A DNA stretch of 64,000 nt, taken from the NCBI GenBank assembly GCA_002869585.1, contig PKUO01000059.1:1-64000 (forward strand). Direction: 5' to 3'. The position numbers were made by a program, and so were the translations under genes. Under the pieces are notes generated by a model. It ran no database searches, was not told the DNA's origin, and saw nothing but the letters and a program-made list of their open reading frames with translations. Within the stretch, counting starts at the first letter, position 1. Each line of letters starts with the position of its first letter. This stretch comes from Sedimenticola sp. (GTDB taxonomy: Bacteria; Pseudomonadota; Gammaproteobacteria; Chromatiales; Chromatiaceae). Below are positions 42,070-60,500 of this stretch, piece by piece.

Positions 42070-42187
42070 TTGGCAGTTGACCATGCCAACGACTCTGCCA
42101 CGCACCCCTGCGTACCCCCTCTCAACCATATAATTCCAAAACTGGCTTGCTAACCTACGAATCAGCTTATAAACTGCAGGTCGCTTA

Positions 42188-42385
42188 AGGTTTTCGCAGA
42201 TATTTGCGAATGAAACGGGAAGTCGGTGCCCTCCGGAAGGAGCCATTCCGACACTGCCCCCGCAACGGTAGGCAAGGAAGATGTCGGTAATATGCCACTG
42301 TGCTCATGCATGGGAAGGCGCTGCATCACGGGATACATCCCACCTTGCGAGTCCGGAGACCGGCCTTGGGTATCAACCAGGGTGT
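42188..42385 (+). promoter_or_regulatory. Cobalamin (adenosylcobalamin) riboswitch
   Basis: The conserved core can be read in order: GGGAAGTCGGTG, then ACTGCCCCCGCAACGGTA, GCCACTG, GGGAAGGCG and the B12 box AGTCCGGAGACCGGCC (42351-42366). This is the classical RNA that binds cobalamin and shuts off downstream uptake genes. About 125 bases of expression platform separate it from btuB. Boundaries are approximate. It should control the whole btuB-F-C-D unit. Confidence 0.95.
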
Positions 42386-42511: not shown

Positions 42512-44407
42512 ATGCACAGGCCATGTACAGAACGACCCTTTCGGCGTTCGATATTTATTCAAACAGCCCTTACCTCACTACTCTTTCTCTCACCATTCCA
42601 GATAGCTGTTGCAGCCACCGAGGAACTGCCGGATGTGGTCTTCTCCGCTTCGAGAATCGAGCAACCTATCCACCGGATCGGATCATCTGTAGCGGTACTC
42701 TCGTCTGATGAACTACGAGAAAGGGGGGTTGAATTTGTCGCCGATGCCCTGCTTGAAGTCCCTTCCCTGATCGTCAGCAGCCAAGGCCCCCGTGGCAGCA
42801 TGACACAGGTTCGGGTCAGAGGTAATGAAGCCAACCATGCATTGATACTGATAGACGGCATGCGTGTCAGCAATGCGTCGACCGGAGAATATGACCTTGC
42901 CAACATGAACCTGGAGAGCGTCGAAAAGATTGAGGTGCTTCTCGGACCGCAAAGCACATTGTATGGCAGTGACGCCATCGCCGGCGTGATCAGCATCACC
43001 ACCCGCAAAGGCCACGAGGGCTTCGAGGGTCTGGTGCGCGTTGGAATCGGTTCACAGAAGACACGCTCCGGTTCCGCCCAGATCAGAGGCGGGCAACAGG
43101 GTTGGCACTATAGTTTGACCACCAGCAAATACCTTACCGATGGCATTTCAGCCGCCAGCGAGGCAAACGGCAATTTTGAAAAGGATGACTACCAGTCCAA
43201 GTCACTCAATATCAAAGCCGGTTATGACCAAGACAGTTTTCAGACCTGGCTGGTCTTCAATCAAACTGACTCACGCTATGATTTCGACAGCGATGATTTT
43301 GTCAGCGGACTGGCGGTTGATGAAGAGTCGAATCGCCAATGGGGGAACACCCGATCCCTTGCCCTGGTAATGGCTGTCCCCCTGTTCGACGGACGCATGA
43401 CCAACCAGCTGCAACTCTCGAAAATCGAAAATGACCTGGAACTCTACACAGTATTTTTCGGCTCCGGCTCCACCTACGAGACAAAAACCGACCGGAATGC
43501 CATTGAGTATCAGGGAAGTTTCAAACTAAACGAGGCGAACAGCCTGCAGTTCGGCGCTGAGCGCTTCGAGGAGGATTTGCTGGCCACCAGTTACTCGGTG
43601 TTTAACCGCTCGGTGGAACAAAAAGGCGCCTATCTGCAATGGCTGACCGCCGTTGGCGACCTGGATCTCTCATTGGGATCACGCTGGGACAAGCATGACA
43701 CTTTCGGCACACAAAACACCTACCGTCTGACAGCAAGCTATCCTGTCAATGATCGGTTCAGACTGCGAGCCTCCCACAGCACCGGGTTCAAAGCCCCAAG
43801 TCTCCAGTAACTGTATGACACCAGCTTCGGCGGTAACCCTGAATTAAACCCGGAAGAATCAACCAGCAGTGAATTGGGCCTGGAATACCGCAGCGACGAC
43901 TATCATGCCAGCCTTACCCTGTTCACCCAGGATACGGACAACCTGATTCGCTACGCCGGGGTCTACCCCACCGGGATCAACCAGAACGTGGACAGCGCCG
44001 AGAGCAAGGGTGCAGAGCTGGCCTTCGGTCTCTCCCGGGACGAATTCCAGCTGGACGCGGCGCTATCCAGGGTCAAGGCGACAGAGACCAAGGACGGCAT
44101 CACCCTGGAGCGGATCAGGGTTCCAAAGTGGTCCGGTCATCTGCTCGCCAGCTATTATCTGACCAGCGGAAGGGTTTGGGCACAGGCACTCTATCGTGGA
44201 GAGCGACGCGACGTGAATTTCTCCACATCGGAAGATGTCCGCTTAAAAGGCTATTGGCTGATCAACCTGGGCGCCAGCCATGAACTGGCTGACAATCTTA
44301 CCCTTTCCGGACGCATTGAAAACCTCGCTGATAAACAGTATGAAGAGATCTATAGTTACGGCACTCGTGGCCGTACTGGCATGCTTACCCTCGATTGGCG
44401 CTTCTGA
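42512..44407 (+). pseudogene. btuB: TonB-dependent vitamin B12 receptor BtuB, interrupted by one in-frame TAA
   Basis: The frame encodes a BtuB-like receptor of about 631 residues: signal peptide ending VAVAA-like, a TonB-box/plug region (LPDVVFSASR, VRVRGNEANHALILIDGM, VEVLLGPQSTLYGSDA-like) and a 22-strand barrel ending in the outer-membrane signal TLDWRF. At 43808-43810 a TAA follows FKAPSLQ and precedes LYDTSFGGNPELNPE in the same frame. Related receptors read FKAPSLxQLY, so the codon was most likely CAA (Gln). Everything else is intact. Either a fresh nonsense mutation, a sequencing error or read-through; without the last nine or so strands no barrel would form. Confidence 0.85.
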
Positions 44408-46829: not shown

Positions 46830-48272
46830 CTATTTTGCCGGCAGATATTCGTTGAGTTTTTCCACTACCTGGTCGGCAGTCAGGCCGTATGCCAGCTTGG
46901 TGATGAAGGTTCCATCGGGCGCAACCAGATAGAAACTCGCCGTATGATCCATCAGATACTCGTCCGGATCACGTCCCTCTTCCAGCACCTTCTCATAGCG
47001 TACCCGGTACTGCTCGGTGACCCGCTGAATCATACTGGGGGTTCCGGTCAGGCCGATCAGGTTATTGCCAAAATAGCTCACGTACTGGTTAATCACTTCC
47101 AGTGTGTCGCGTTCCGGGTCAACCGATATGAAATAGGGTTGTATGAGCGACGCCCGTTCGCCCATCTTCTGCAGCGCAGCCGACATGACCTGCAGGGATG
47201 TCGGACAGACATCGGGACAATACGTATAACCAAAATAGATCAGCTGATATTTACCCAGCAGATCCTTCTCCGTGACCAGCTTGCTGTTGTGGTCAACGAG
47301 TAAAAACTTGCCCTCGATAGGCGCATACGCGGGGTAGAGTTCGTCATCTTCCAATACGGCATGTTTTTTTTTCGTGTTGGCCTGGGAATTCAGACACCCT
47401 TTAATGGTGTTGGTGTTGTATTCCATCAACTCGAAATAGAGTTCTGTACCGGGCGTGAACTGGGTGCCAAAGGTATCCAGTTCTGCGCTCGGGACATTGC
47501 TGTCAGCGCTCAGCAGCAGGGGCAGTTCCTTGGCCTCCACCTCTCGTTCCAGCAACAGGCAGGCAAACTCCCCGTTGTTGAGTTTTGCCCGGTTGGTCAG
47601 CAAAGCTGTACCGGATACGCCGGGATGCTGCAGGGATGTGACGGTATTGCCCACCTTCAGGGCATAGGCCTGCTCGAAATACTGCAGGGTATCAAAATAG
47701 GCCAGTCCGACACCGCCCTTGAAACCGCGATAGCCATACTCGAAGCGGCGGTCCAGTTCAGCCACCCGGCCCAGCAGCTTTTTCCTGTTCCGGGAGTAGA
47801 GATGCGCATGGGCCGGATCGTCCGCCATTAACCGCTTGGCTATTTCATCCACCAGAATGATGGCATTGCGTGTATCCAGCCAGAAAAACGGATCACGCTC
47901 CTCCTCGCTCCAGCGCGCCGGGAGTATTTTCAACTCCATGCTATCCAGCAGCGTCTCAACCGTGGTGTCACTCCCCAGCCGGCTGAGCGGCTCGATCAGA
48001 AAACCTTCCAGTTCAGGACCCGCCCAAAACACCAGGTCGGCCTGCTGGAGATCGGCCAGTTGTGCTTCGGTCAACTGATAGTCGAACGGAATCCTGCCCT
48101 GAGGCACGATCAGTTGCAGGCCATCCAATCCCTCCATCAATCCCGCTACCAGGGAATGGATCGGCTTGATGCTGGCAACGACCCGAAACTGATCTTTCGA
48201 CCAGGCAACAGATGACCCTGCCAGCAAAATCAGGGCAAAGATGCAGAACGCAACGCGTGTAACTGTTTTCAT
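46830..48272 (-). CDS. Fusion of a ZnuA-like metal-binding-protein domain with a SCO1/SenC copper chaperone
   Basis: A 480-residue periplasmic protein with a Sec signal (about residues 1-25). Residues about 28-300 follow ZnuA closely from VVASIKPIHSLVAGLMEG through QADLVFWAGPELE and LDTFGTQFTPG. All three positions of the zinc-binding His are Phe (F63, F129, F193). Residues about 315-480 form a SCO thioredoxin-fold domain with the copper ligands C352 and C356 (YCPDVCPTS) and H443 (MDHTASF). SCO proteins load copper into CuA sites, present in both NosZ and cytochrome oxidase. The gene is the last in the nos direction of transcription. The role of the ligand-free ZnuA half is unknown. Confidence 0.9.
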   Translation of the reverse strand: MKTVTRVAFCIFALILLAGSSVAWSKDQFRVVASIKPIHSLVAGLMEGLDGLQLIVPQGRIPFDYQLTEAQLADLQQADLVFWAGPELEGFLIEPLSRLGSDTTVETLLDSMELKILPARWSEEERDPFFWLDTRNAIILVDEIAKRLMADDPAHAHLYSRNRKKLLGRVAELDRRFEYGYRGFKGGVGLAYFDTLQYFEQAYALKVGNTVTSLQHPGVSGTALLTNRAKLNNGEFACLLLEREVEAKELPLLLSADSNVPSAELDTFGTQFTPGTELYFELMEYNTNTIKGCLNSQANTKKKHAVLEDDELYPAYAPIEGKFLLVDHNSKLVTEKDLLGKYQLIYFGYTYCPDVCPTSLQVMSAALQKMGERASLIQPYFISVDPERDTLEVINQYVSYFGNNLIGLTGTPSMIQRVTEQYRVRYEKVLEEGRDPDEYLMDHTASFYLVAPDGTFITKLAYGLTADQVVEKLNEYLPAK

Positions 48273-48296: not shown

Positions 48297-48635
48297 TTAG
48301 CGAAAGACCTGTTGCAACACTTTGATTGCCTGATCGACCTGCGCAGTAAACGTCTCTGCGGCAGGGCATTCTGACTGCTCGGCGATGAACTTCAAATATG
48401 AGTCATTGGTTGCGATATCGAAGGCCTCGCCCAACTGTCTGCGCTTTGGCAACGCATTGATCAACGAGCCTTTCATGCGCCGGGTTTCATCCAGAAACTG
48501 GCAATGCAGCGCTATTCCATTGAGTTCGCCAAGGGCGACAATGGAGTTGTACTGTTCATCACTGATCGCGTAAGCCAGATGCGATGTGGCAACTGACAGG
48601 GCAAATATCCAGATTCTCAAACCATGCTTAATCAT
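48297..48635 (-). CDS. Small secreted protein, unknown
   Basis: A 112-residue protein with a Sec signal (residues 1-23, ending HLAYA). The mature part is helical, with two cysteines (IALHCQFLDE and EQSECPAAE) that could form a disulfide. ATG at 48633-48635 is preferred to a TTG three codons earlier. It lies between the ZnuA-SCO fusion (24 bases) and menA (about 100 bases), all on the same strand, which hints at a role in the same copper/respiratory context. No family recognised. Confidence 0.6.
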   Translation of the reverse strand: MIKHGLRIWIFALSVATSHLAYAISDEQYNSIVALGELNGIALHCQFLDETRRMKGSLINALPKRRQLGEAFDIATNDSYLKFIAEQSECPAAETFTAQVDQAIKVLQQVFR

Positions 48636-48732
48636 CAAATTCAACCTGATCTCATCAATTCGGCACGAAGATTATATGACTGCAGACAGCCTGTAACTGC
48701 CCAATATCAAATCGGGATAGCAATACCCTGCA

Positions 48733-49644
48733 TCACAGCAATGACAGATACAGCCCGACAGAAAGAGCCAAAGTAAGCAGCAACTGCGCCCGCACTGTTC
48801 TCACCAACAGCCTGTTCATTTCAGGTCCAGGCATTGTTCGCCAGAACAGCAGTGCATTGCCCATAAACCAGGGAAGAGTGACCAGCCCAAGCAATGACCC
48901 CAGAGGATAAGAAGCCAGCGTACTGGCCAACACTATCAGCACAAAGGGCAGTAACATAAACAGTGCGTAAACCACGCGCACATGCGTTAGATCAAGCAAT
49001 ATGGCTAAAGTTCGACGGCCGGCGCGGGTATCGCCCTCAACATCGCGGGTATTGTTCACCAGCAGAACGGCCGCGGCCGGAAGGCCGATTGCCACGCCCC
49101 ACAACAGCAGTCCGGGATTGAAATTCCGGGTATGGAGATAATAGGTACCTGCAACTGCGGCAATGCCGAAAAACAGAATGACGAACAATTCACCCAGGGG
49201 GGTTCTTGAAATGGGCCAGGGACCGTGAGAATAGGCAAACCCGGCGGTAAGCGACAGAATCCCCAGCAGCAGTATCGGCAATCCGCCCACCCAGACCAGA
49301 TAAATACCGATCATTCCGGCCAGCAAGAACATCAGATACCCTGCCCTGGTCACCTCGGCAGGCGTGGCCTGGCCTGTTGCCGTAATACGCTCCGGGCCGA
49401 TTCTCTGCTGATCATCGGTACCGTTGATATAGTCTGCTGAATCATTGAACAGATTGGTACCTGCCTGTATCGCCACTGCAGCGAGAATCACCAGCCCTGG
49501 CAGCAACCAGTTGGCCGATTCCGGTTTCTCGACCAAGGCCAGAACTGTACCCAGCACAACGGGAGAAAAAGACAACGCAAGGGTTCGCGGCCGAATCGCC
49601 ATGAACCAGAGAACAGCCTGTCGCTTGATTTCGTCGCTATTCAT
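48733..49644 (-). CDS. menA: MenA-type 1,4-dihydroxy-2-naphthoate polyprenyltransferase
   Basis: A 303-residue UbiA-superfamily prenyltransferase with eight or nine helices. It has the two Asp-rich motifs NLFNDSADYINGTD and NNTRDVEGDTRAGRRTLA; the latter (NNxRDxxxDxxxGxRTL) is typical of MenA, not UbiA. The enzyme attaches the isoprenoid tail in menaquinone synthesis. It follows nosY by 22 bases in the same direction. This is notable because NosG/NosH-type modules are thought to oxidise menaquinol. No other men gene is in the window. Confidence 0.8.
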   Translation of the reverse strand: MNSDEIKRQAVLWFMAIRPRTLALSFSPVVLGTVLALVEKPESANWLLPGLVILAAVAIQAGTNLFNDSADYINGTDDQQRIGPERITATGQATPAEVTRAGYLMFLLAGMIGIYLVWVGGLPILLLGILSLTAGFAYSHGPWPISRTPLGELFVILFFGIAAVAGTYYLHTRNFNPGLLLWGVAIGLPAAAVLLVNNTRDVEGDTRAGRRTLAILLDLTHVRVVYALFMLLPFVLIVLASTLASYPLGSLLGLVTLPWFMGNALLFWRTMPGPEMNRLLVRTVRAQLLLTLALSVGLYLSLL

Positions 49645-49666: not shown

Positions 49667-50494
49667 CTAGGGCAAATCACTGCGGCGAAACAGAAAATAC
49701 CCTACCGAGGCACAGATCACACCGACAACAATCGGATAGATCAACGCATAGGTGATATAACCGGCCTGTCCAAAGGTATCCAGAATCACGTAGGCCGAGG
49801 GGCCAAGCAATACCAGTTGCGGATCAAACAACATCATGGTGGCGGTGCGGAACACCTGCATCGGGTTGATCAGCGCAATCATCACCGCGGTCTCTGCGGG
49901 CAGATGCTCCTGAATAAGTACGCCGAGCAGAATCAGATCGAGAAACAACAGCAGGGTCAGCCAGACCACAAAAGCAGCGCCCTGGGCCACATCCGAGCTT
50001 CTCGCCAGGGTGGAGATAAGCATGCCGATACCGAGAAAACACCAGGCCAGAGCCATCAGCAACGCAGAATAGTAGATCAGCAGATCCCAGGGAATTTCGC
50101 CCCCTTTGATCAGGCCCCAGATGGTAGCGCCTACCAGAGCAAGAAAAACCGGCATGAAAACCACGAAAAAGCGTCCGAAGATCTTGCCCCAGAACCAGGC
50201 CGACAGGGGAATCGGCAAGGAGAGCAGATATTCAAAGACTCCGGCCTCCCGGTCACCCGCCACCGAGCGTACCGTGGTGATCAGCACAAACACCGGCAGG
50301 ATGGCCATGGCGAGCTGGATATAGGTCAGCAGCAACCTGGACAGCCCGGTAAAGCCCATGATTCTTGACTCGGCCAGGCCATAGGCGAACAGCACCACGA
50401 CCAGTCCACCAAACACCAGGGTATAGATCAGAAACCAGCGCGCCCTGAGTGATTCCACAATATCCGTCAATGCGGTCAGCCAAAGATATCTCAT
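49667..50494 (-). CDS. nosY: Copper-site assembly ABC permease NosY
   Basis: A 275-residue, six-helix ABC-2 type permease that forms the NosFY ATPase complex with NosD needed to build the copper-sulfide CuZ site of NosZ. TVRSVAGDREAGVFEYLLSLPI is characteristic of this permease class. Its start overlaps the nosL stop (ATGA). Position after nosF and nosL fixes the identity. Confidence 0.9.
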   Translation of the reverse strand: MRYLWLTALTDIVESLRARWFLIYTLVFGGLVVVLFAYGLAESRIMGFTGLSRLLLTYIQLAMAILPVFVLITTVRSVAGDREAGVFEYLLSLPIPLSAWFWGKIFGRFFVVFMPVFLALVGATIWGLIKGGEIPWDLLIYYSALLMALAWCFLGIGMLISTLARSSDVAQGAAFVVWLTLLLFLDLILLGVLIQEHLPAETAVMIALINPMQVFRTATMMLFDPQLVLLGPSAYVILDTFGQAGYITYALIYPIVVGVICASVGYFLFRRSDLP

Positions 50495-51063
50495 TGTTCG
50501 TTTTGACCCTTGTTTTCAGACTGGTTGATTTCCCTGCGTTGTTCCGCCTGTTCCCTGAGCTTGTCCACCAGGTGGGTGGAGTGCGCATTGAATCGCTCTT
50601 CGATATCAAAAATGTGTTGCTTGGCTGCCGCGAAGTCCAGACCATCGGCGGCAGCCTCTGACTGTGCGCCCAGACCATACTCCATGGGTGTGATCTGGCC
50701 CTGTACATAGGTTGCCGTTCTGGCGTCAATCCATTTTCCGGTACGGTGATCGTTCACCCAGATTTCCGTTTTCGGATCATCCCGCCAAGGCTTGTCTTCC
50801 AGCCACAACAGGGCACAGCCAATATCATCGAACATCAGAACCTGGGAGCGTTTCTTGTCTTCTGGTTGATAACGAACCTGGGCCGAGTGATTGCGATCAC
50901 TCAACACCATTCGACAGCGCTCGCAGGCATCGCGATCCCATTTCACCTCCAGCGGGCCATTTTCCGGAGGACCTGAACAGGCACCCAGAAAAGCAGACAG
51001 CATAACAAGCAGCAGGATCGAAACGGGCTTGAGCCGGCGTATGGCGATAAACCCCTCTGGCAC
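50491..51063 (-). CDS. nosL: Copper-binding lipoprotein NosL
   Basis: A 190-residue outer-membrane-type lipoprotein: signal with lipobox LGAC, then the copper site motif CERCRMVLSD. NosL delivers Cu(I) for NosZ maturation. The start is GTG at 51061-51063, with GGGGA upstream inside the end of nosF. A charged Glu/Gln-rich C-terminal tail (after about residue 150) extends beyond the conserved domain. Confidence 0.93.
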   Translation of the reverse strand: MPEGFIAIRRLKPVSILLLVMLSAFLGACSGPPENGPLEVKWDRDACERCRMVLSDRNHSAQVRYQPEDKKRSQVLMFDDIGCALLWLEDKPWRDDPKTEIWVNDHRTGKWIDARTATYVQGQITPMEYGLGAQSEAAADGLDFAAAKQHIFDIEERFNAHSTHLVDKLREQAEQRREINQSENKGQNEQ

Positions 51064-51065
51064 GG

Positions 51066-51923
51066 CTATTCCCCTGTTTCCGACAACTGGATGTTGGCAA
51101 GCAGCGCGGCATAACGGGACAGAACGCCAAGAAAGCGCAAACGGTCAGGTCCGGCGATCTCTCCCTGCCAGGTCCGATCGCCGTCCGACCCGACAAATCC
51201 CCACTCCCGGATTGTTTTCGCGAAGGCATCCTCTTTGCGGATAAGCCCGACCCTGCATTTCAGCTTGCTGGCCATCTCGACCAGATCAGCGACCCGGTCA
51301 TCGAGCACGATCTTGCCCTGATCCATCTCGACCACCCGGTTTACCAGCGCCACCACTTCATCCAGACGATGGCTGGAGATAATCATCGCCGCCTGATGCT
51401 TTTTCTCGGCCAGCAACCCAAAGAAGATATGGCGCGCCTCGGGGTCCAGGTTGGCCGCGGGTTCGTCCAGCACCAATAATTCACTGTCTCGGCCCAGGGC
51501 TACTGCAATCAGCAACTTCTGCTTTTGCCCGCCGGAGAGCTTAACGAACGGCTGCTTCATGAAACGGCCAATATCCAGCCCCAGTTTGGTAGCGACATCA
51601 ATCATGCGCTCCGGGTCGGTATCACAAACCGTGGCGGCAAAGCGGATCAACTGGCCCACCGGCATTTTCAGCGGTGGCGGCAATTGCGGCACGAAACCCA
51701 CCTTGGAAAGCACAGCCTGACGATTGGCCCGCGGTTCCAGACTATCGATTGTGACGCGCCCATCGTAGGTGTATTCACCCAGCAGGCATCTGATTAAAGT
51801 GGTTTTACCGGCCCCGTTGGAGCCAACCAAGGCCACACGGTGCCCTCTGGCGATATCCAGATCGATACCCTTGAGCACTTCATTGCGACGGAATTTTTTG
51901 ACAACACCCTGAAACTCAATCAT
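51066..51923 (-). CDS. nosF: ABC ATPase NosF
   Basis: A 285-residue ABC ATPase that powers NosY: Walker A GSNGAGKTT, Q-loop FVPQLPPPL, signature LSGGQKQKL, Walker B LLVLDEPAA. The short C-terminal extension is normal for NosF. A very strong hairpin separates it from nosH upstream. Start ATG at 51921-51923. Confidence 0.92.
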   Translation of the reverse strand: MIEFQGVVKKFRRNEVLKGIDLDIARGHRVALVGSNGAGKTTLIRCLLGEYTYDGRVTIDSLEPRANRQAVLSKVGFVPQLPPPLKMPVGQLIRFAATVCDTDPERMIDVATKLGLDIGRFMKQPFVKLSGGQKQKLLIAVALGRDSELLVLDEPAANLDPEARHIFFGLLAEKKHQAAMIISSHRLDEVVALVNRVVEMDQGKIVLDDRVADLVEMASKLKCRVGLIRKEDAFAKTIREWGFVGSDGDRTWQGEIAGPDRLRFLGVLSRYAALLANIQLSETGE

Positions 51924-52035: not shown

Positions 52036-53007
52036 TCAAAGATGCTTGCCAATCCCCTTCATTTCGAAATTCAAACTATTGGTCGGGCAGACATCCACGC
52101 ACATGCCACACCGGGTGCAATCGGCACTGACATCGACGTTGACATCCGAGGCACGCCCCTTGATGGTCATATCGAGCACATGGGGGACCAGACAGACACT
52201 ACGGCAATCACCTTCGTGATGACAATCCTTGACGTTATATTTGACCCGCAGCGGCGAGATTGCCCCAACCACCCCGTAGGTGATACCGATGGGACAGACA
52301 TAACGACACCAGGCGCGGCGGGAATAGAACACCTCGAACAGCAGCACCAGTCCTACCCAGATCAGCGCAATACCGGGACCATAGATCAGTGCCCGACTGA
52401 CGATGCCGGTCACCGAAATGGTTTCAAACACGGTATAACCGGAAATCAGCGCCATGAGTGCAAACAGGACATAAAAAACCGTGCGCACGCGGCGGTCGAA
52501 AGTGCGGTTCTTGACCCAGTTTTTCTTCACCAGATAAAGGTGCAGGGATTCCGCCCACTCCGACAACAGGTGATAAGGGCATACCCAGGAGCAAAAGGTT
52601 CGCCCGCCGAGGAGTATCCAGATGATGAACACGGTAACCGTGCCGATCACCAGGTTGAGCACCATATGCTTGAAGGCCAGTGTAACCTGTAGCGCCGAAT
52701 TGAGATCGGCCATGTGAAAACCGACAAACCGGGAGGCCGTCAACGCGCCTTCCAGAATCTGCACATCAAAATAATAGGAGACGACAAACAGCAGGTTAAT
52801 GAAAATCAAGGTCGCCCAACGACGATTTCGCCACTTGGTCGAAGCGGGACCATGCTCTTCCTGCAGTTGTTGAAAGTCCGCCTTGGTAAAGGGGTTTTCT
52901 TTCTTGTACAGATGTATCTCTTTAACTTCAACAGACATCTGCTCTTTGCTGGGCCGGGTGGGTGCAGCGCCAAACAGCTGTTTCAGGGACTCAGTGATGT
53001 AGCTCAT
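52036..53007 (-). CDS. nosH: Polyferredoxin-type membrane protein NosH (NapH-like)
   Basis: A 323-residue inner-membrane protein with four or five helices, two CxxxCP motifs (FCSWVCPYHL and WCRYVCPIGI) and two C-terminal ferredoxin clusters, the last CTRCGMCVDVCP. Together with NosG it forms a quinol dehydrogenase feeding NosZ in clade II clusters, replacing NosR. ATG at 53005-53007 with GAGG upstream is chosen over a longer frame. Seven bases separate it from nosG. Confidence 0.88.
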   Translation of the reverse strand: MSYITESLKQLFGAAPTRPSKEQMSVEVKEIHLYKKENPFTKADFQQLQEEHGPASTKWRNRRWATLIFINLLFVVSYYFDVQILEGALTASRFVGFHMADLNSALQVTLAFKHMVLNLVIGTVTVFIIWILLGGRTFCSWVCPYHLLSEWAESLHLYLVKKNWVKNRTFDRRVRTVFYVLFALMALISGYTVFETISVTGIVSRALIYGPGIALIWVGLVLLFEVFYSRRAWCRYVCPIGITYGVVGAISPLRVKYNVKDCHHEGDCRSVCLVPHVLDMTIKGRASDVNVDVSADCTRCGMCVDVCPTNSLNFEMKGIGKHL

Positions 53008-53014
53008 AGATACC

Positions 53015-53860
53015 TCACGCCATATCCGTAAACTTTTCGATGTTGATGACGATGGCCGGCGGCTCAGGTGGACAGACCATTTCACAAACACCACAACCGA
53101 CGCAGCCTTCCTTTATCACCGGAACCATCGCGCCATTGGTCGCTCCATCGACCGGCTCCAGGGCGATAGCGTGTTGCGGGGGACACTGATTCTGGTCGCC
53201 GGATGGCGGCTTGCCTTCGGCACACTGAGAAATACGGATCTCAATCGGACACTGCCTGACACAGAGGTCACAGAGTTCCAGATCATAGGGATGATCGGCG
53301 ACCTGGATCGGATTCCAGCGATCGATTTCGTCATACCGGAGCTTACCTTTGTAGTCTGCACCCCTGGCCAGCCCCTTGAAACCTTTGCCCTGTATCGCCA
53401 GGCAGGCTTTCGGACGCGACAGCTCTGCAAACCCCATACGGGACTCTGCAGGGTAGTTCAAATCATGGGTCAGAGCGCCGGTGGGACAGGCCAGTACACA
53501 CTGAAGACCATCACAGGAGAAATCGCAGGCCTGGTCGCGTGCATTGATGTAGGGCGTGCCCACGCCAACACCGCTCTGCAGATCATCGAGAATGATCGCC
53601 TCTACCGGACAAACCTGGACGCATTGACCACATTTGATACAAGAGGCTAGATACTCCTGCTCATCATTGGGTGTTTTCAGGGCGCCGGGTGGACGCAAAC
53701 GCAATACATCACCCCGTGCCGCCGGGATCAGACCGAGCAGAGAAAAACCGGTAACACCGGCCGCCAGCACAGCGGTGCGGAGGAACTCTCTGCGTTCCTG
53801 CTCGCGCCTGCGGCCCGCCGGTTTTATCTTCTTCGCCTTGCCGACAACTTTGTCGTTCAT
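53015..53860 (-). CDS. nosG: Periplasmic iron-sulfur protein NosG (NapG-like)
   Basis: A 281-residue protein with a Tat signal (RREFLRTAVLAAGV) and four [4Fe-4S] motifs, e.g. CIKCGQCVQVCP, CDFSCDGLQCVLACP, CDLCVRQCP and CVGCGVCEMVCPP. It takes electrons from NosH and passes them to periplasmic cytochromes. Order D-G-H matches Wolinella-type nos clusters. Confidence 0.9.
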   Translation of the reverse strand: MNDKVVGKAKKIKPAGRRREQERREFLRTAVLAAGVTGFSLLGLIPAARGDVLRLRPPGALKTPNDEQEYLASCIKCGQCVQVCPVEAIILDDLQSGVGVGTPYINARDQACDFSCDGLQCVLACPTGALTHDLNYPAESRMGFAELSRPKACLAIQGKGFKGLARGADYKGKLRYDEIDRWNPIQVADHPYDLELCDLCVRQCPIEIRISQCAEGKPPSGDQNQCPPQHAIALEPVDGATNGAMVPVIKEGCVGCGVCEMVCPPEPPAIVINIEKFTDMA

Positions 53861-53892: not shown

Positions 53893-55320
53893 TCAATTCT
53901 GCAGGGATTCCCGCAATGCCTTTAGAGCATCGAAAGAACCTGCCCCTTCGCTGCCTGACTGGTCAGGTTGGGATTGCTCCCCTATATCACTTCCCTCTGT
54001 TTTTGTTTTATCTGCCCCTGCAAAATCCCTTGAGACAGTTGCAACCATTAATGGTTTTTTATCACGTACCAGCATGTTCGGATCGGAAAACGGCGCCAGT
54101 CTTTCCAGAAAATCAAGCACTTCCATAACTGGAGAACCCTTGAAGAAACGTGCCGAGGGAACATCCATCCACAGACGATCCGCGTAGCTATAGAGTTCGT
54201 AAGGATTATCGCCGACCATATCGGCATCCTGGTCAAAACCTTCAAAATCGTCCCAGTAATTGCCTTCCCAGGTGTTTCGATTTGCAGTCTTACCGCCACT
54301 GACAACCACTTGGGTAATGTTGCCTTTAAAGGCATTACCCTGAAAAACATTGCCAATCCAGTCGTTGAGAAACAGAACTCCCACACCGCTGTAGGCAATC
54401 AGATTATCGGTGATTCTATTGGTTGTATCCGGCTGAAAAGGCGACACGTCAAGATAGAGGCCGGTGGCGCAATAGAGCACCTTGTTACCCGTGACCACCA
54501 CATCTGAGGTCTCTTTGAATCCAATGCCCATCCCGGTGGCGCCTATGGCGTGAGCGATATAGTTATCTTTGAGGACCACACCATCGCTGTACATGACGAA
54601 GATTCCCACCGAGTTGTCTTCGTAGTGATTACCGATAACCTCGTTGTATTGCGAGTACATGAAATGCAGCGAATAACGCCCGCCCCTGGCGTCATTACGC
54701 GCAATCAGATTATCCCGCGAATACCAGACCACCATATCCCTGGAGTTCCGGATGATATTATCGGTGATCTTGTTATTAAACGAATACCAAAGCCTGATTG
54801 CATCACCCCTGACACCCAGGTCAAAGTCTTTCGATGAAATCCGGTTACCCCGGACAATATTGTTCTCCGACTGCTGCAGATCAATACCGAACAAGGAGTT
54901 GTCGATGACGTTGTCGCGGATGACATTGAAATTACCCCGAACCTGCACACCCGAATCAATATCGTTATGGGATTCGCCAGAGTTGGTCAGGTGCAAATTC
55001 TTCAGCGTGGCGCCGTCAGTATCGAGTATGAATACCGATCCCTTGCCACCAGAATCGATTGTCACTTTATTCTGTCCATCGATAACCATGGGTTTATCGA
55101 CAATCACCGGTCCGGCATAGGTGCCGGGAGGGGGTATCAGGGTGCTGTTGGGCTCTGCTGCATCGACAAGTTGTTGGAACGGGATAAGTTCTCCCTCTTC
55201 AGCCACTGACTGAAGAGGGAGAATAAACATGCCAACCAATACACATAATAAAGTGAGCAGAGTTACTTGAATCGGAGATCTGCTTTCGCGGTGAATCCAG
55301 TATTTAAAATTGAAACCCAC
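53893..55320 (-). CDS. nosD: Copper-centre maturation protein NosD
   Basis: A 475-residue periplasmic right-handed beta-helix protein (repeated N-x-I-x-x-N turns such as NKITDNIIRNSRDM and NEVIGNHYEDNSVG) with a Sec signal after an unusually long basic N-terminus. The domain ends with YWDDFEGFDQDADMVGDNPY, conserved in NosD. NosD works with NosFY in CuZ biogenesis. The last 40 residues are low-complexity and specific to this protein. Confidence 0.93.
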   Translation of the reverse strand: MGFNFKYWIHRESRSPIQVTLLTLLCVLVGMFILPLQSVAEEGELIPFQQLVDAAEPNSTLIPPPGTYAGPVIVDKPMVIDGQNKVTIDSGGKGSVFILDTDGATLKNLHLTNSGESHNDIDSGVQVRGNFNVIRDNVIDNSLFGIDLQQSENNIVRGNRISSKDFDLGVRGDAIRLWYSFNNKITDNIIRNSRDMVVWYSRDNLIARNDARGGRYSLHFMYSQYNEVIGNHYEDNSVGIFVMYSDGVVLKDNYIAHAIGATGMGIGFKETSDVVVTGNKVLYCATGLYLDVSPFQPDTTNRITDNLIAYSGVGVLFLNDWIGNVFQGNAFKGNITQVVVSGGKTANRNTWEGNYWDDFEGFDQDADMVGDNPYELYSYADRLWMDVPSARFFKGSPVMEVLDFLERLAPFSDPNMLVRDKKPLMVATVSRDFAGADKTKTEGSDIGEQSQPDQSGSEGAGSFDALKALRESLQN

Positions 55321-55368: not shown

Positions 55369-56559
55369 CTAAGCGGCACTTGATGACTTGAACTGTTTCC
55401 ACCTGACCAGTGCAGCTACGGCCAGAACCAGGGAAGAGATCATCATTATGCCGAACCCGATATAAGGGTATGAATGGGTGGTAAACTGGGCCACTTTACC
55501 CTGACCAAAGACCGTGGGCATGAACGGTTTGACCGAAAAGGCGCCCATATCGTTCAAGGTATGGCCATACCACCAGAGCCAGGCCGAGTAATCGATTATA
55601 AAAAACAGCGGCAATCCCAGTGGCACAAGCACCAGCAGCCAATAAAAGATCCCGCCATTTTTGCGTGCCCCGTAGACTAGCAGCACCATGGCAATAATCA
55701 ACCCGACAAAAACTACATTTAAGGCGATTTTAAGATTGGCCACCATCGGCACAATCTCTTCCTGATTGTTGAAATAACGGCCCAGGCTCTTGCCATAGTG
55801 CCATGCCATGACCTGGAAGCTACTGCCATCCCATGCCTCTTTGACCCGACCCTTCTGGAAGTCTTTGTCATAGGTGGCTTTCAACTGCTCGATCAGATTC
55901 TGTTTTACCGAGGTTTCGGCTTTCTCGGAAGTCTTTGGGGCCGTGCTCTCTACAACCACACCGGAATCTTCCAGGGATTTACGCAGGCGCGCTACGATCG
56001 GGTTGACCGATTCGGTCGGCTCAGCCGCCTTATCACCTGTAGCCTCCTGGTCAAGTGAGGTGATCAACGCCTCCACATAACCTTCGTTTTGCAGATTGAA
56101 CCCACCTTCGCTGTACATGGTTAGATACATCCAGCCAATCAGACCGGCAAAGCCAACGCCCAGAATACCCACGCGAACCTTGGGTTTGGTGCACATGAAG
56201 CCAATCAGCATGATGCCCAGCATAATCATGAGAAACTGGCCAAAGCCACGCTCCACCGGGCCACCCGCGGCGATCGGATACATGCCCACGTAGTGGTTGA
56301 TGGTGTCCATCTCATGCACGCAATCCAGTGCCTCGTCCTCGAAAATCTCTTCCTTCTCGACCTTTTTACAGCCATTGAATACGCCATTCATATGAAAATG
56401 AATACGTACACCATCCGGGAATGCCTCTTCCGGATAGTTAGGTGCGGTTAAGGAAACCCACCAAATGGGTGAATAGAAGATTACCGCAAACAGCCCAACG
56501 GCAATCAGAGAAAGTAACCCGACAACGAGAGTCTGCTTGGATTGATTCACTGCATTCAT
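55369..56559 (-). CDS. nosB: Membrane protein NosB-like, of atypical nos clusters
   Basis: A 396-residue inner-membrane protein with about six helices in two groups (residues about 10-30, 105-160, then 275-390) and a large hydrophilic periplasmic loop (about 165-275). It begins with FYSPIWWVSLTAPNYPEEAFPDG. Proteins of this type lie between nosZ and nosD in clade II clusters and are called NosB; their function is unknown. The two cysteines in the first loop (NGCKK, LDCVH) may form a disulfide. Confidence 0.75.
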   Translation of the reverse strand: MNAVNQSKQTLVVGLLSLIAVGLFAVIFYSPIWWVSLTAPNYPEEAFPDGVRIHFHMNGVFNGCKKVEKEEIFEDEALDCVHEMDTINHYVGMYPIAAGGPVERGFGQFLMIMLGIMLIGFMCTKPKVRVGILGVGFAGLIGWMYLTMYSEGGFNLQNEGYVEALITSLDQEATGDKAAEPTESVNPIVARLRKSLEDSGVVVESTAPKTSEKAETSVKQNLIEQLKATYDKDFQKGRVKEAWDGSSFQVMAWHYGKSLGRYFNNQEEIVPMVANLKIALNVVFVGLIIAMVLLVYGARKNGGIFYWLLVLVPLGLPLFFIIDYSAWLWWYGHTLNDMGAFSVKPFMPTVFGQGKVAQFTTHSYPYIGFGIMMISSLVLAVAALVRWKQFKSSSAA

Positions 56560-58106: not shown

Positions 58107-60401
58107 TTATTTAACCTTTTTCGCACCGTTCTCTTCCAGATGAGTCTTGGCGCGCAGACCGAGATCGGCGGTCTTAACCTGATACTGCCACCATTGGCCG
58201 GCCCAGAGTGTTGCATTCTGGTAGTCGCCTTTGGCTGCATACTCTTCGGCTTTGGTTTTCGCTTCGGTAGCGAAGCCCAGCTGATCGGTCGCATCTTCAA
58301 CCAGTGCAACAACTGTCGGAAAGTCCTTGTAGTTGTGGCTGGTGATGAAGGCTACAACTGAATCGATGACACCCTGGGTTTCGACGTTGGTCTTGACCTG
58401 TTTGTCATAATCAGCCTGAGTATACTGCTCGCCTTCCTGCATTTCAGTGGCCTTGGCCTGGTAACCTTTCGGTTTGACCAGCAGATAGCCCTGCATTTCC
58501 AGATGGAGAGCGGAACAGAACTCTGTACAGTAGTAAGGATACACGCCTGCCTTCTCAGCGGTAAAGCTGGCAGTCGCGGTTTTGCCGGGCTCGATGGAGA
58601 GCTGTACGTTCTGGCTGTACATGGCAAAACCGTGTACTTCGTCCTGCGCACGTTCGAGGTTAGTCAAATGGATGGAAACCTCGTCACCCTCTTCCACTTC
58701 GATGATTTCAGGGGTGATGTGTGAACGAATTACAGTACCGTAGACATGAACCCTGTTACCGTCACGTTCCACTTTCTCACGACCAGCGCGAGTTGCGTAC
58801 TCAGACTTGGTGTCAGTACGGCTGTTCCAACCGGATTTGTAACGAACGGCCGGCTGCAGCTTGTCTGCCTTGATAGCTACAACATAGTGTGGTTCGCCCA
58901 AAGGCAGTGGCATGTCGTACAACAGTTGCATTTTATCGCCACTGATATCGATCAGCTGATGGTTCTGCGGATGCAGCGGACCAACAGGATTGAAACGGTC
59001 GATAGACAGTTTATTCAATGAAACCAGGTACTTACCGTCAGGTGTAACGGAATCGCCTTCCATTGCAAGAAGGTGACCGATGTTGTAATGGATATTCAGT
59101 TGATCCAGCACCTTGCCTTCACAGTAGTCCCACTTGGTAACCATGGAATCCACATAGATGGAGGTGTAGACCACACACTCTTTCGCGTCATACTGAGTAT
59201 GTAGCGGACCCAGACCAACCTGCACCTGGGTATGCAGCGCATCTTTCAGAGCAATGATTGGAATACCGTAGGGGTCTTTGCCTTCGAACTTGCCGTTCTT
59301 GATGGCGTCCTGGATTTTTGGCCAGCTATAAACCCAAGCATGGCTATCCAGCTTACCGGAAACGATGATGTGATCACCCTTCGGGTTAACGTCAACACCA
59401 TGCGGGCTCTTTGGCTCTGGAACCAGATACAACAGACCTTCCTTGACGGCCTGATCCATGGTGATCAGGTAGGAACCGTTGACCTTGTTGACCTTGCCAG
59501 CAGCAACCAGCTCGGCAGCCTTTTTCCAGTTGGTGATATGCAGGAAGTCGGTATCTTTCTGTGAACAGCCTGCCTCGAAGGGAGGACGTCCGCGCTCGAT
59601 ACCACCGACATAACGCTCAGAACAGAAGGAGTTGGTGAAACCCCAGCCGTAGGAGGCGTTCTTACCAGCGTCGGAGAGATCCTGGCTGTAAGGTGGCAAT
59701 TCGAAAGTGAAAGACTCTTCGGGCTTCAAACGGCCCTCTTTATTATCGAATTTCCAATAGGTTACACCACCGCGATATTTATCATTGAACTCTTCCAGTG
59801 GCACGAAGTCGCTGGAATAGGGAGCGGCGTACTGTGAGGCTTCCATCACGTATTCAGTGTTTGGGGTTGCGAATGCGCCACCGTGATCGGACTTGAAGAA
59901 GGGGTTGACCACGATCTGCTTGGTTTCAAAGTCATGCAGGTCGATAACCGCCAAACGGGGGTTGGCCTTGTCATTGATGAACAAATAACGGCCATCATAT
60001 TCGCCATCTTTCTCGGAGAAGGCGGGATGGTGGGTATCACCATACACGATGTCTTTGCCCATAATACGGCCCTGAGCCAATACAGCCTTTGATTCATCAT
60101 CAAAGCCATAGCCCTGCCATGGTTCCGGGGTAAATACACCGATGTATTTGAGAATACGCATTGATGGAATGCCGTAAACGATAACATGGCCGCTCTGTCC
60201 ACCAGAGCTGAATGCCATGTATTCATCACGTCCACCGGTCGGGGTATAGGTCTTTGCTGCAGCCAACAGGTCTTTCTGCGTCAAACCCCTTGCCTTCATG
60301 ACATCCTCGAGCGATTCTTGCGAATACGCGCTCGAAGCTGCACCAAGGCCGAGAGTAAGCCCCATTAGCAGCGATATGGTTCTTGTTTTGAACATTTTCA
60401 T
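58107..60401 (-). CDS. nosZ: Nitrous-oxide reductase NosZ, Sec-exported clade II type, C-terminally extended
   Basis: NosZ reduces N2O to N2 in the periplasm. The 764-residue precursor has a Sec signal without the twin Arg, the mark of clade II. The beta-propeller carries the CuZ ligand region (YGDTHHPAFSE). The cupredoxin domain holds CuA: C625, C629, H633 and M636 (CTEFCSALHLEM). Known NosZ proteins usually end about ten residues after this Met; here about 128 more follow, a mostly helical, haem-free extension. ATG at 60399-60401 with GGAG is chosen over a longer frame. Transcription is probably driven by the FNR-type box at 60501. Confidence 0.96.
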   Translation of the reverse strand: MKMFKTRTISLLMGLTLGLGAASSAYSQESLEDVMKARGLTQKDLLAAAKTYTPTGGRDEYMAFSSGGQSGHVIVYGIPSMRILKYIGVFTPEPWQGYGFDDESKAVLAQGRIMGKDIVYGDTHHPAFSEKDGEYDGRYLFINDKANPRLAVIDLHDFETKQIVVNPFFKSDHGGAFATPNTEYVMEASQYAAPYSSDFVPLEEFNDKYRGGVTYWKFDNKEGRLKPEESFTFELPPYSQDLSDAGKNASYGWGFTNSFCSERYVGGIERGRPPFEAGCSQKDTDFLHITNWKKAAELVAAGKVNKVNGSYLITMDQAVKEGLLYLVPEPKSPHGVDVNPKGDHIIVSGKLDSHAWVYSWPKIQDAIKNGKFEGKDPYGIPIIALKDALHTQVQVGLGPLHTQYDAKECVVYTSIYVDSMVTKWDYCEGKVLDQLNIHYNIGHLLAMEGDSVTPDGKYLVSLNKLSIDRFNPVGPLHPQNHQLIDISGDKMQLLYDMPLPLGEPHYVVAIKADKLQPAVRYKSGWNSRTDTKSEYATRAGREKVERDGNRVHVYGTVIRSHITPEIIEVEEGDEVSIHLTNLERAQDEVHGFAMYSQNVQLSIEPGKTATASFTAEKAGVYPYYCTEFCSALHLEMQGYLLVKPKGYQAKATEMQEGEQYTQADYDKQVKTNVETQGVIDSVVAFITSHNYKDFPTVVALVEDATDQLGFATEAKTKAEEYAAKGDYQNATLWAGQWWQYQVKTADLGLRAKTHLEENGAKKVK

Positions 60402-60500
60402 CAGGACTCCTAGTTCATTATGAATGCCAAGCAAATAGCCATGCCTGAATAAGTTGAGCATTGCACGGTCGAATTTTCATAAATATTCGTTTTTCGCACA

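Follow-up and report, generated by a model that had tools for sequence, protein, structure and literature searches.

We propose that a small gene for a protein of 115 amino acids and the ZnuA-like/SCO fusion gene that follows it encode a copper-maturation module for nitrous oxide reductase (NosZ), in which the ZnuA fold would be kept as a metal-free docking or structural domain; we give this reading a probability of about 0.52. That the module delivers copper, that NosZ is its client and that the ZnuA fold serves for docking are inferences. The two genes lie in the window, by which we mean the whole stretch of 64,000 nucleotides analysed (Sedimenticola sp., GenBank assembly GCA_002869585.1, contig PKUO01000059.1, positions 1 to 64,000), where they adjoin a run of nos genes (Table 1). 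The names NosY, NosF, NosH/NapH, NosG/NapG and NosB in this run are identities that we take the genes to have. Two cytochrome genes separate nosZ and nosB. The label "clade II-type" for the window's NosZ comes from the NosB-like gene and from a leader that, by eye, has no twin-arginine motif, and it has no tree behind it; a NosB gene and the type of leader are given as marks of clade II NosZ in the excerpted text of PMC11409646.

Table 1. Position of the fusion gene, its domains, the partner gene and the nos gene run in the window.
Feature	Position	Strand	Remarks
ZnuA-like/SCO fusion gene	46830..48272	(-)	open ORF, 480 aa; last in nos gene run
SCO1/SenC domain, residues 321-456, C352-x3-C356 and H443	46905..47312	(-)	PF02630
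ZnuA-like domain, residues 31-292	47397..48182	(-)	PF01297
Family-specific conserved stretch, residues 170-200	47673..47765	(-)	R175, Y179-G-Y-R182, Y192
115-aa partner gene	48297..48644	(-)	directly upstream of fusion; likely start M4, 48635
menA-like 1,4-dihydroxy-2-naphthoate prenyltransferase, between nosY and partner	48733..49644	(-)	TIGR00751 166.2 bits, cut-off 102.15
NosY-like ABC-2 permease	49667..50494	(-)	PF12679; name by position
NosL	50491..51063	(-)	PF05573 28.9 bits, cut-off 24
NosF-like ABC ATPase	51066..51923	(-)	PF00005; name by position
NosH/NapH-like 4Fe-4S protein	52036..53094	(-)	
NosG/NapG-like 4Fe-4S protein	53015..53860	(-)	
NosD	53893..55320	(-)	PF05048 128.5 bits, cut-off 23.6
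NosB-like membrane protein	55369..56559	(-)	position in run; sub-threshold Pfam match
NosZ, clade II-type	58107..60461	(-)	

The first-pass annotation had described the window protein as a ZnuA-SCO fusion with phenylalanine at the three positions of the zinc-ligand histidines, and several lines of evidence bear this out. Both Pfam matches lie far above their cut-offs (PF01297, ZnuA, 123.8 bits against 29; PF02630, SCO1/SenC, 164 bits against 22.8). In a phmmer alignment with Salmonella ZnuA (2xh8, in which the His-rich loop is deleted), the histidines of 'EHDY', 'MHLWL' and 'FHDAY', which we take to be the zinc ligands of ZnuA, fall on F63, F129 and F193 (codons at 48084-48086, 47886-47888 and 47694-47696); two alignments with E. 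coli ZnuA agree at the first and third sites and are out of register at the second, at the His-rich loop. The AlphaFold2 model of the fusion protein (mean pLDDT 90.7) matches ZnuA 7rcj with a Z of 30.0 and 2.3 A over 262 residues, and the placement of the ZnuA-like domain relative to the SCO domain is poorly predicted (pTM 0.66). Judged from the alignment, the window protein does not have the three histidine metal ligands of a ZnuA-type protein. The acidic fourth-ligand position is kept (D266). Residues 63/129/193/266 are H/H/H/D in four ZnuA-like proteins from related genomes (L016, L019, L021 and L022, which we label ordinary ZnuA) and A/H/H/D in L005, a more distant paralog of the ZnuA type from the same genome as the window (G000:C85:63511-64209), which the alignment shows with alanine in place of the first ligand histidine.

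The partner gene has a signal-peptide-like N-terminus (by eye) followed by a predicted helical bundle, modelled with a pLDDT of 92.8. Eight residues are invariant in 59 aligned sequences (N42, A45, C48, K58, P66, R69, G72 and C93), two of them cysteines and none a histidine. The window protein had no Pfam match at E 0.1, and we found no convincing family for it in Pfam, NCBIfam or PHROGs (two PHROGs matches, E about 0.1), no convincing fold match for its model (best Foldseek E 3.5; best Z 4.7 in VIA-align, whose list re-examines Foldseek's own chains) and no match in the plasmid search. We considered a PCuAC chaperone and rejected it: PF04314 is absent among the matches of the 59 aligned proteins (E 0.05), and there is the lack of an invariant histidine. 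Weak matches to DUF3218, DUF5392 and a maltodextrin glucosidase model, each in 1/59 members, were set aside as chance.

We compared the window protein with 77 loci in named genome contigs, giving 78 sequences; the loci were found by a scan with two family motifs, and members without these motifs would be missed. By title, the loci belong to Sedimenticola (24), Gammaproteobacteria (18), Candidatus Thiodiazotropha (12), other animal symbionts (11) and Chromatiales (7), with one each in Chromatiaceae, Thiotrichales, Methylophaga, Thioglobus and the alphaproteobacterium Terasakiella. The partner gene lies directly upstream on the same strand at 73/77 loci. The distance between the two genes ranges from -38 to 185 bases, and in 22 cases, with the start codons chosen, they overlap by 4 bases. 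Four loci do not have the partner gene: two (L093, L097) start inside the fusion gene, and two (L057, L105) also have no SCO part. The SCO domain keeps its CxxxC motif and histidine, as had been claimed for the window protein: C352 and C356 are present in 73/73 and H443 in 71/71 of the members that cover them. At L099, L100 and L077, a second SCO-like gene lies no more than about 2 kb from the fusion gene. The cultured S. selenatireducens DSM 17993 has the fusion in two copies (L087 and L100); matching coordinates identify it with genome G119, in which there is an 86% identical NosZ.

The notion of a specific triple change from histidine to phenylalanine found no support in this comparison. 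Position 63 holds Y in 37 members, F in 18, L in 8, H in 8, G in 2, W in 2, and Q, T and a gap in one each; position 129 holds F in 43, Y in 24, H in 9 and L in 2; position 193 holds Y in 34, F in 24, H in 18, and L and Q in one each. Three phenylalanines occur in 7/78 members and are one among 24 full combinations. Read from the alignment, the three sites follow an exchange of Tyr, Phe and His (with Leu and Trp also at 63), of which the window's combination is one sample. On a tree of the ZnuA-like domain built without the columns under test, parsimony requires at least 16, 14 and 20 changes at positions 63, 129 and 193, against 3 at position 266. The share of F, Y, W and H is nevertheless 84% at 63 and 97% at both 129 and 193, and positions 63, 65, 129 and 193 are the only ones among the domain's 269 at which these four residues make up at least 80% while no single residue reaches 75%.

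Such a pattern might also be produced by a pocket. The ZnuA-like cleft could bind copper in an organic complex, or another ligand compatible with aromatic side chains, and pass on the copper or a signal to the SCO domain, and the constancy of aromatic or histidine side chains through 14 to 20 changes is what a ligand-lining pocket might show. The fourth-ligand position is mostly kept as well (D 59, N 16 and K 1 in the 76 members with a residue there), W83, W131 and N136 are common to the family and ZnuA, and the list of fold matches contains related binding proteins, including FpvC (6ru4). Against this, bulky rings at all three sites can be expected to occupy a cleft sized for a metal, and the free exchange of Y, F and H speaks against a precise ligand. 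The surroundings of the gene in the window argue in the same direction. The 115-aa gene, menA and the nos genes lie beside it, and the opposite strand has a FecCD-type permease and ATPase, a vitamin B12-type set; this is the only ABC uptake set beside the fusion gene and its run opens with a cobalamin riboswitch. We found no znuB or znuC among the neighbour genes checked in the window. We thus regard a bound ligand as unlikely, though worth keeping in mind. The riboswitch (42171-42382) lies just upstream of a TonB-dependent receptor gene (42512-44407, plus strand), so that the run looks like a vitamin B12 uptake set; the receptor gene has an in-frame stop at codon 433, after which the remainder of the barrel continues in the same frame. 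Partial BtuD-like matches occur beside other loci.

Histidines elsewhere in the domain were considered as substitute zinc ligands. H39 is conserved, but the four ordinary ZnuA have it too; H157 is family-specific (71/78), and nothing places either residue in the metal site. No other conserved histidine in the 78-member alignment clearly fills the former zinc site.

The genomic link of the fusion and its partner to NosZ is strong. Among 210 genomes of the order, where every genome listed comes from the same family as the window, the ZnuA-like domain and NosZ occur together in 64, the domain alone in 10, NosZ alone in 34 and neither in 102 (Fisher p 2e-18, a figure that ignores kinship, which inflates co-occurrence). 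In this table carriers are defined by a clean score gap in the profile search (307 vs 220 bits), and NosZ is counted at 74% identity or more to the window's, which leaves out G077, G078, G116, G223, G224, G225, G226 and G228, whose only matches are 35-38% identical. The open frame is at least 470 aa long in 69/74 carriers and split or cut in the others (G001, G020, G194, G199, G201). All 74 carriers have the partner, for which the corresponding counts are 73 genomes with both partner and NosZ, 10 with the partner only, 25 with NosZ only and 102 with neither. Since 34 of the 98 genomes with NosZ are without the ZnuA-like domain and 25 without the partner, the module is not essential for all such NosZ.

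Eight of the ten carriers in which NosZ was not found are at most 84% complete. The other two are G164, where the contig stops about 200 bases past the fusion gene, and G007, a Solemya velum symbiont with no NosZ found in the genome, whose nos cluster has apparently been lost in part. At the Solemya velum symbiont locus L106:3864-11365, nosY, partner and fusion adjoin two transposase-like genes (by eye).

The best guard against kinship is a sample of 369 genomes of the class, in which the carriers span six families. NosZ is present in 9/9 carriers (seven with the fusion and two with a stand-alone ZnuA-like gene) and in 15/360 others; the order set shares two of these nine genomes, and the seven that remain without them all have NosZ. 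A further genome, G416 (87% complete), has the partner and the start of the ZnuA-like domain at a contig end and no NosZ at threshold, and counting it as a carrier makes the figure 9/10 (class table p 4e-11, likewise uncorrected for kinship). The alphaproteobacterium Terasakiella has a NosZ 74% identical to that of the window. Within flanks of up to 10 kb, nos genes occur at 34/77 loci; the pair is placed just upstream of nosZ at 25 of these, on the nosY side, as in the window, at eight, and divergent from nosZ at one. These results uphold an association with nos clusters holding a clade II-type NosZ, a correlation that the first-pass annotation had proposed to check, and we consider the link to NosZ, taken alone, to be likely. 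In the symbiont of Lamellibrachia barhami (L074:11515-15438), nosZ is directly followed by a second nosZ-like stretch, which is partial.

Co-occurrence might simply reflect a shared denitrifying life style, the fusion serving terminal oxidases or general copper supply. SCO proteins classically serve the CuA site of cytochrome oxidase, as stated in the excerpt of PMC7558416, and 43/77 loci have no nos gene in the flank examined, some contigs being short. Yet three further SCO genes are present in the genome that the window comes from; a PCuAC gene neighbours one of them and a gene for a heme A synthase-like protein (by eye) another, so that oxidases have other SCO genes available and an SCO protein dedicated to NosZ is plausible. 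The co-occurrence with NosZ also holds over the six families of the class sample and in an alphaproteobacterium. Finally, L076, a locus away from nos genes, has menB, menD, menA and isochorismate synthase over cut-off beside the gene pair, together with menC-, menE- and NapC/NirT-like genes below it, and this is an anaerobic setting. We therefore judge an oxidase role to be slightly less probable still than a cleft ligand. The first-pass annotation had left the destination of the copper between NosZ and an oxidase; the first of these is favoured by co-occurrence and the second comes out weaker. The menaquinone genes near the pair possibly link menaquinol supply to N2O respiration. A ubiE-type gene lies beside the gene pair at L036, a locus without nos genes.

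The arrangement of the parts varies between genomes. The partner lies beside a stand-alone SCO gene in five genomes of genus g23 (G023, G139, G141, G142, G145) and in G334, and is itself fused to SCO in G222. Two genomes have the ZnuA-like gene alone on a separate contig, with a partner-SCO fusion in G526 (the assembly of L057) and the partner beside SCO in G047. Terasakiella also has a stand-alone ZnuA-like gene, and the partner was not found there. No ZnuA-like domain was found in at least seven genomes with partner and SCO (G222, G334 and the five of genus g23), which makes this domain dispensable to the module and suggests that partner and SCO are the core and the ZnuA-like part an addition. 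Two genomes with the partner only (G014, G123) stop at contig edges. Fusions in varied combinations are classical evidence of parts acting together. Neither the partner gene nor these rearrangements had been noticed in the first pass.

Given the histidines that remain in the family, the domain could be a metal-binding module whose site is lost and regained, with zinc or copper bound in some members and absent in others. Histidine is absent from all three sites in 54/78 members and occurs once in 18, twice in one and three times in five. The last five, L073 among them, form one clade (100/100) with N at position 266 in place of D. Their existence bears on the first-pass annotation, which had named homologues with histidine at these sites as evidence against its reading: such homologues do occur, but as a clade nested within an 18-row clade (100/99) of aromatic relatives, its nearest sister being weakly supported (83/25). 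The nesting and N266 point to histidines that may have been regained rather than retained, and because of the nesting we rejected the full triad as the ancestral state, with the limits that branches near the root are long and that parsimony counts alone cannot separate gain from loss. Scored as histidine or not, there are only 3 changes at position 63 and 2 at 129, consistent with gains, while H193 comes and goes at least nine times. Basal branches (L105, L111, L102) keep H193 and have no H63, and L109 keeps H193 with a gap at 63; this suggests that the histidines may have been lost stepwise, in an order that the long branches make unsure. The single HHH clade and the coming and going of H193 are what a module alternating between states could leave behind. 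With most members having no histidine at any site and the full triad confined to a nested clade with N266, we find such a module improbable.

The view that the domain was re-used and is not decaying has held up well, with the high confidence of the model and with the substitution rates. In pairs of close relatives, the median dN/dS is 0.11 for the ZnuA-like half (computable for 16/18 pairs), and the SCO half, computable for 18/18, has a median of 0.07. Both halves are under purifying selection, and thus the ZnuA-like domain is not decaying. Of the residues that the four ordinary ZnuA do not have, K115, R182 and Q201 are present in 78/78 members, G180 and Y181 in 77/78, and R163, R175 and Y179 in 75/78 each. 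Several of them belong to the stretch of residues 170-200, which reads D174-R-x-x-E178-Y-G-Y-R182 and Y192-x-D194-T-L-Q-Y-F-E200 and is followed by the likewise family-specific Q201 and A202. C238 and C293 are invariant in the family and common to the four ZnuA. That the ZnuA-like half is a decaying leftover is thus highly improbable, because the loss of the classical metal site, a dN/dS above that of the SCO half and the genomes with partner and SCO that do without the domain are set against a dN/dS far below 1, the conservation of family-specific residues and stand-alone ZnuA-like copies in three genomes (G047, G526, Terasakiella). One member with a split frame was seen. In this case (L110, a Lamellibrachia anaximandri symbiont), a frame change splits the fusion gene between the ZnuA-like and SCO parts and is either real or an assembly error.

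We return to the proposal of a module made of the partner and the ZnuA-like/SCO fusion, which would act in the periplasm in the maturation of the clade II-type NosZ. The SCO domain would bind Cu(I), reduce the cysteine pair of the CuA site of NosZ, or both, by means of C352, C356 and H443. The ZnuA-derived domain would have lost zinc binding, its metal site between the lobes being filled by three exchangeable aromatic or histidine side chains, and would serve, free of metal, as a structural or docking domain by which the SCO domain is brought close to either NosZ or the partner protein. Its docking surface may be the family-specific R-x-x-E-Y-G-Y-R region, a guess from conservation. In the model, the block-mean pLDDT drops to 81 and 76 over residues 171-190, where most other blocks of the ZnuA-like domain have at least 87; the lower predicted confidence at the EYGYR stretch fits, without proving, a contact site for an absent partner.

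Each of the parts resembles known proteins to some extent. With ZnuA and other cluster A-I proteins (PF01297), the ZnuA-like domain shares the fold and the conserved P, W, N, D and Cys pair; it differs by the absence of the full His triad in the window protein and 73/78 members, the attached SCO domain, the R/E-Y-G-Y-R signature and the lack of znuB and znuC beside the window gene. AdcA of Streptococcus pneumoniae (7jj9) likewise joins a ZnuA-like domain to another periplasmic domain, but PDB titles give AdcA and its ZnuA-like domain as Zn(II)-bound and its second domain, presumably ZinT, is unlike the SCO domain of the fusion. To our knowledge, the copper supply of CuA in clade II NosZ has been little studied. 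Other SCO1/SenC proteins share the CxxxC motif, the histidine and the link to N2O or nos genes, and the fusion differs from them in its N-terminal ZnuA-derived domain and closely linked partner gene. In Paracoccus, the SCO homologue senC2 is tied to N2O reduction at low copper, probably at CuA, with NosL acting on CuZ, and Pden_4445, of unknown function, has an N2O phenotype (excerpts of PMC7558416); in Bacillus azotoformans a senC/SCO1 gene lies near nos genes (excerpt of PMC3475470). The maturation factors NosL, NosD, NosF and NosY have in common with our module the gene run and the supply of copper to NosZ. The partner and the fusion match other families, and NosL serves CuZ according to the part of PMC6530538 at hand.

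Each domain and the connection of SCO proteins to NosZ or nos genes are already known. In the literature searched, mostly open-access, we found no description of a ligand-free ZnuA-SCO architecture, of the aromatic exchange, of the partner family or of the shuffling. A plasmid search with the fusion matched 548 records, none covering 80% of the query in one place, and the eight plasmid records among the matches listed are annotated as zinc-binding ZnuA or unannotated. More tentatively, and at somewhat less than even odds, the observations may be drawn together as an undescribed three-part NosZ maturation system of sulfur-oxidising Gammaproteobacteria and animal symbionts, made of a helical family with two cysteines, an SCO chaperone and a metal-free ZnuA-fold adaptor with stacking aromatic rings, whose parts would be shuffled yet kept with clade II-type NosZ and whose His triad would have been rebuilt in one lineage.

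In excerpts of PMC11237620 and PMC6279868, NosZ is described as the only way in which organisms consume N2O, and it fails under copper limitation (PMC7660919, in excerpt). In sulfur bacteria and animal symbionts, the fusion and its partner track this enzyme, which destroys the greenhouse gas nitrous oxide, and are probably an undescribed part of its copper supply. The family supplies named targets for gene deletion in Sedimenticola strains that can be cultured. Its members also form a natural series in which the ligands of a metal-binding fold are lost and apparently regained, and this series makes practical a test of how binding proteins become adaptors.
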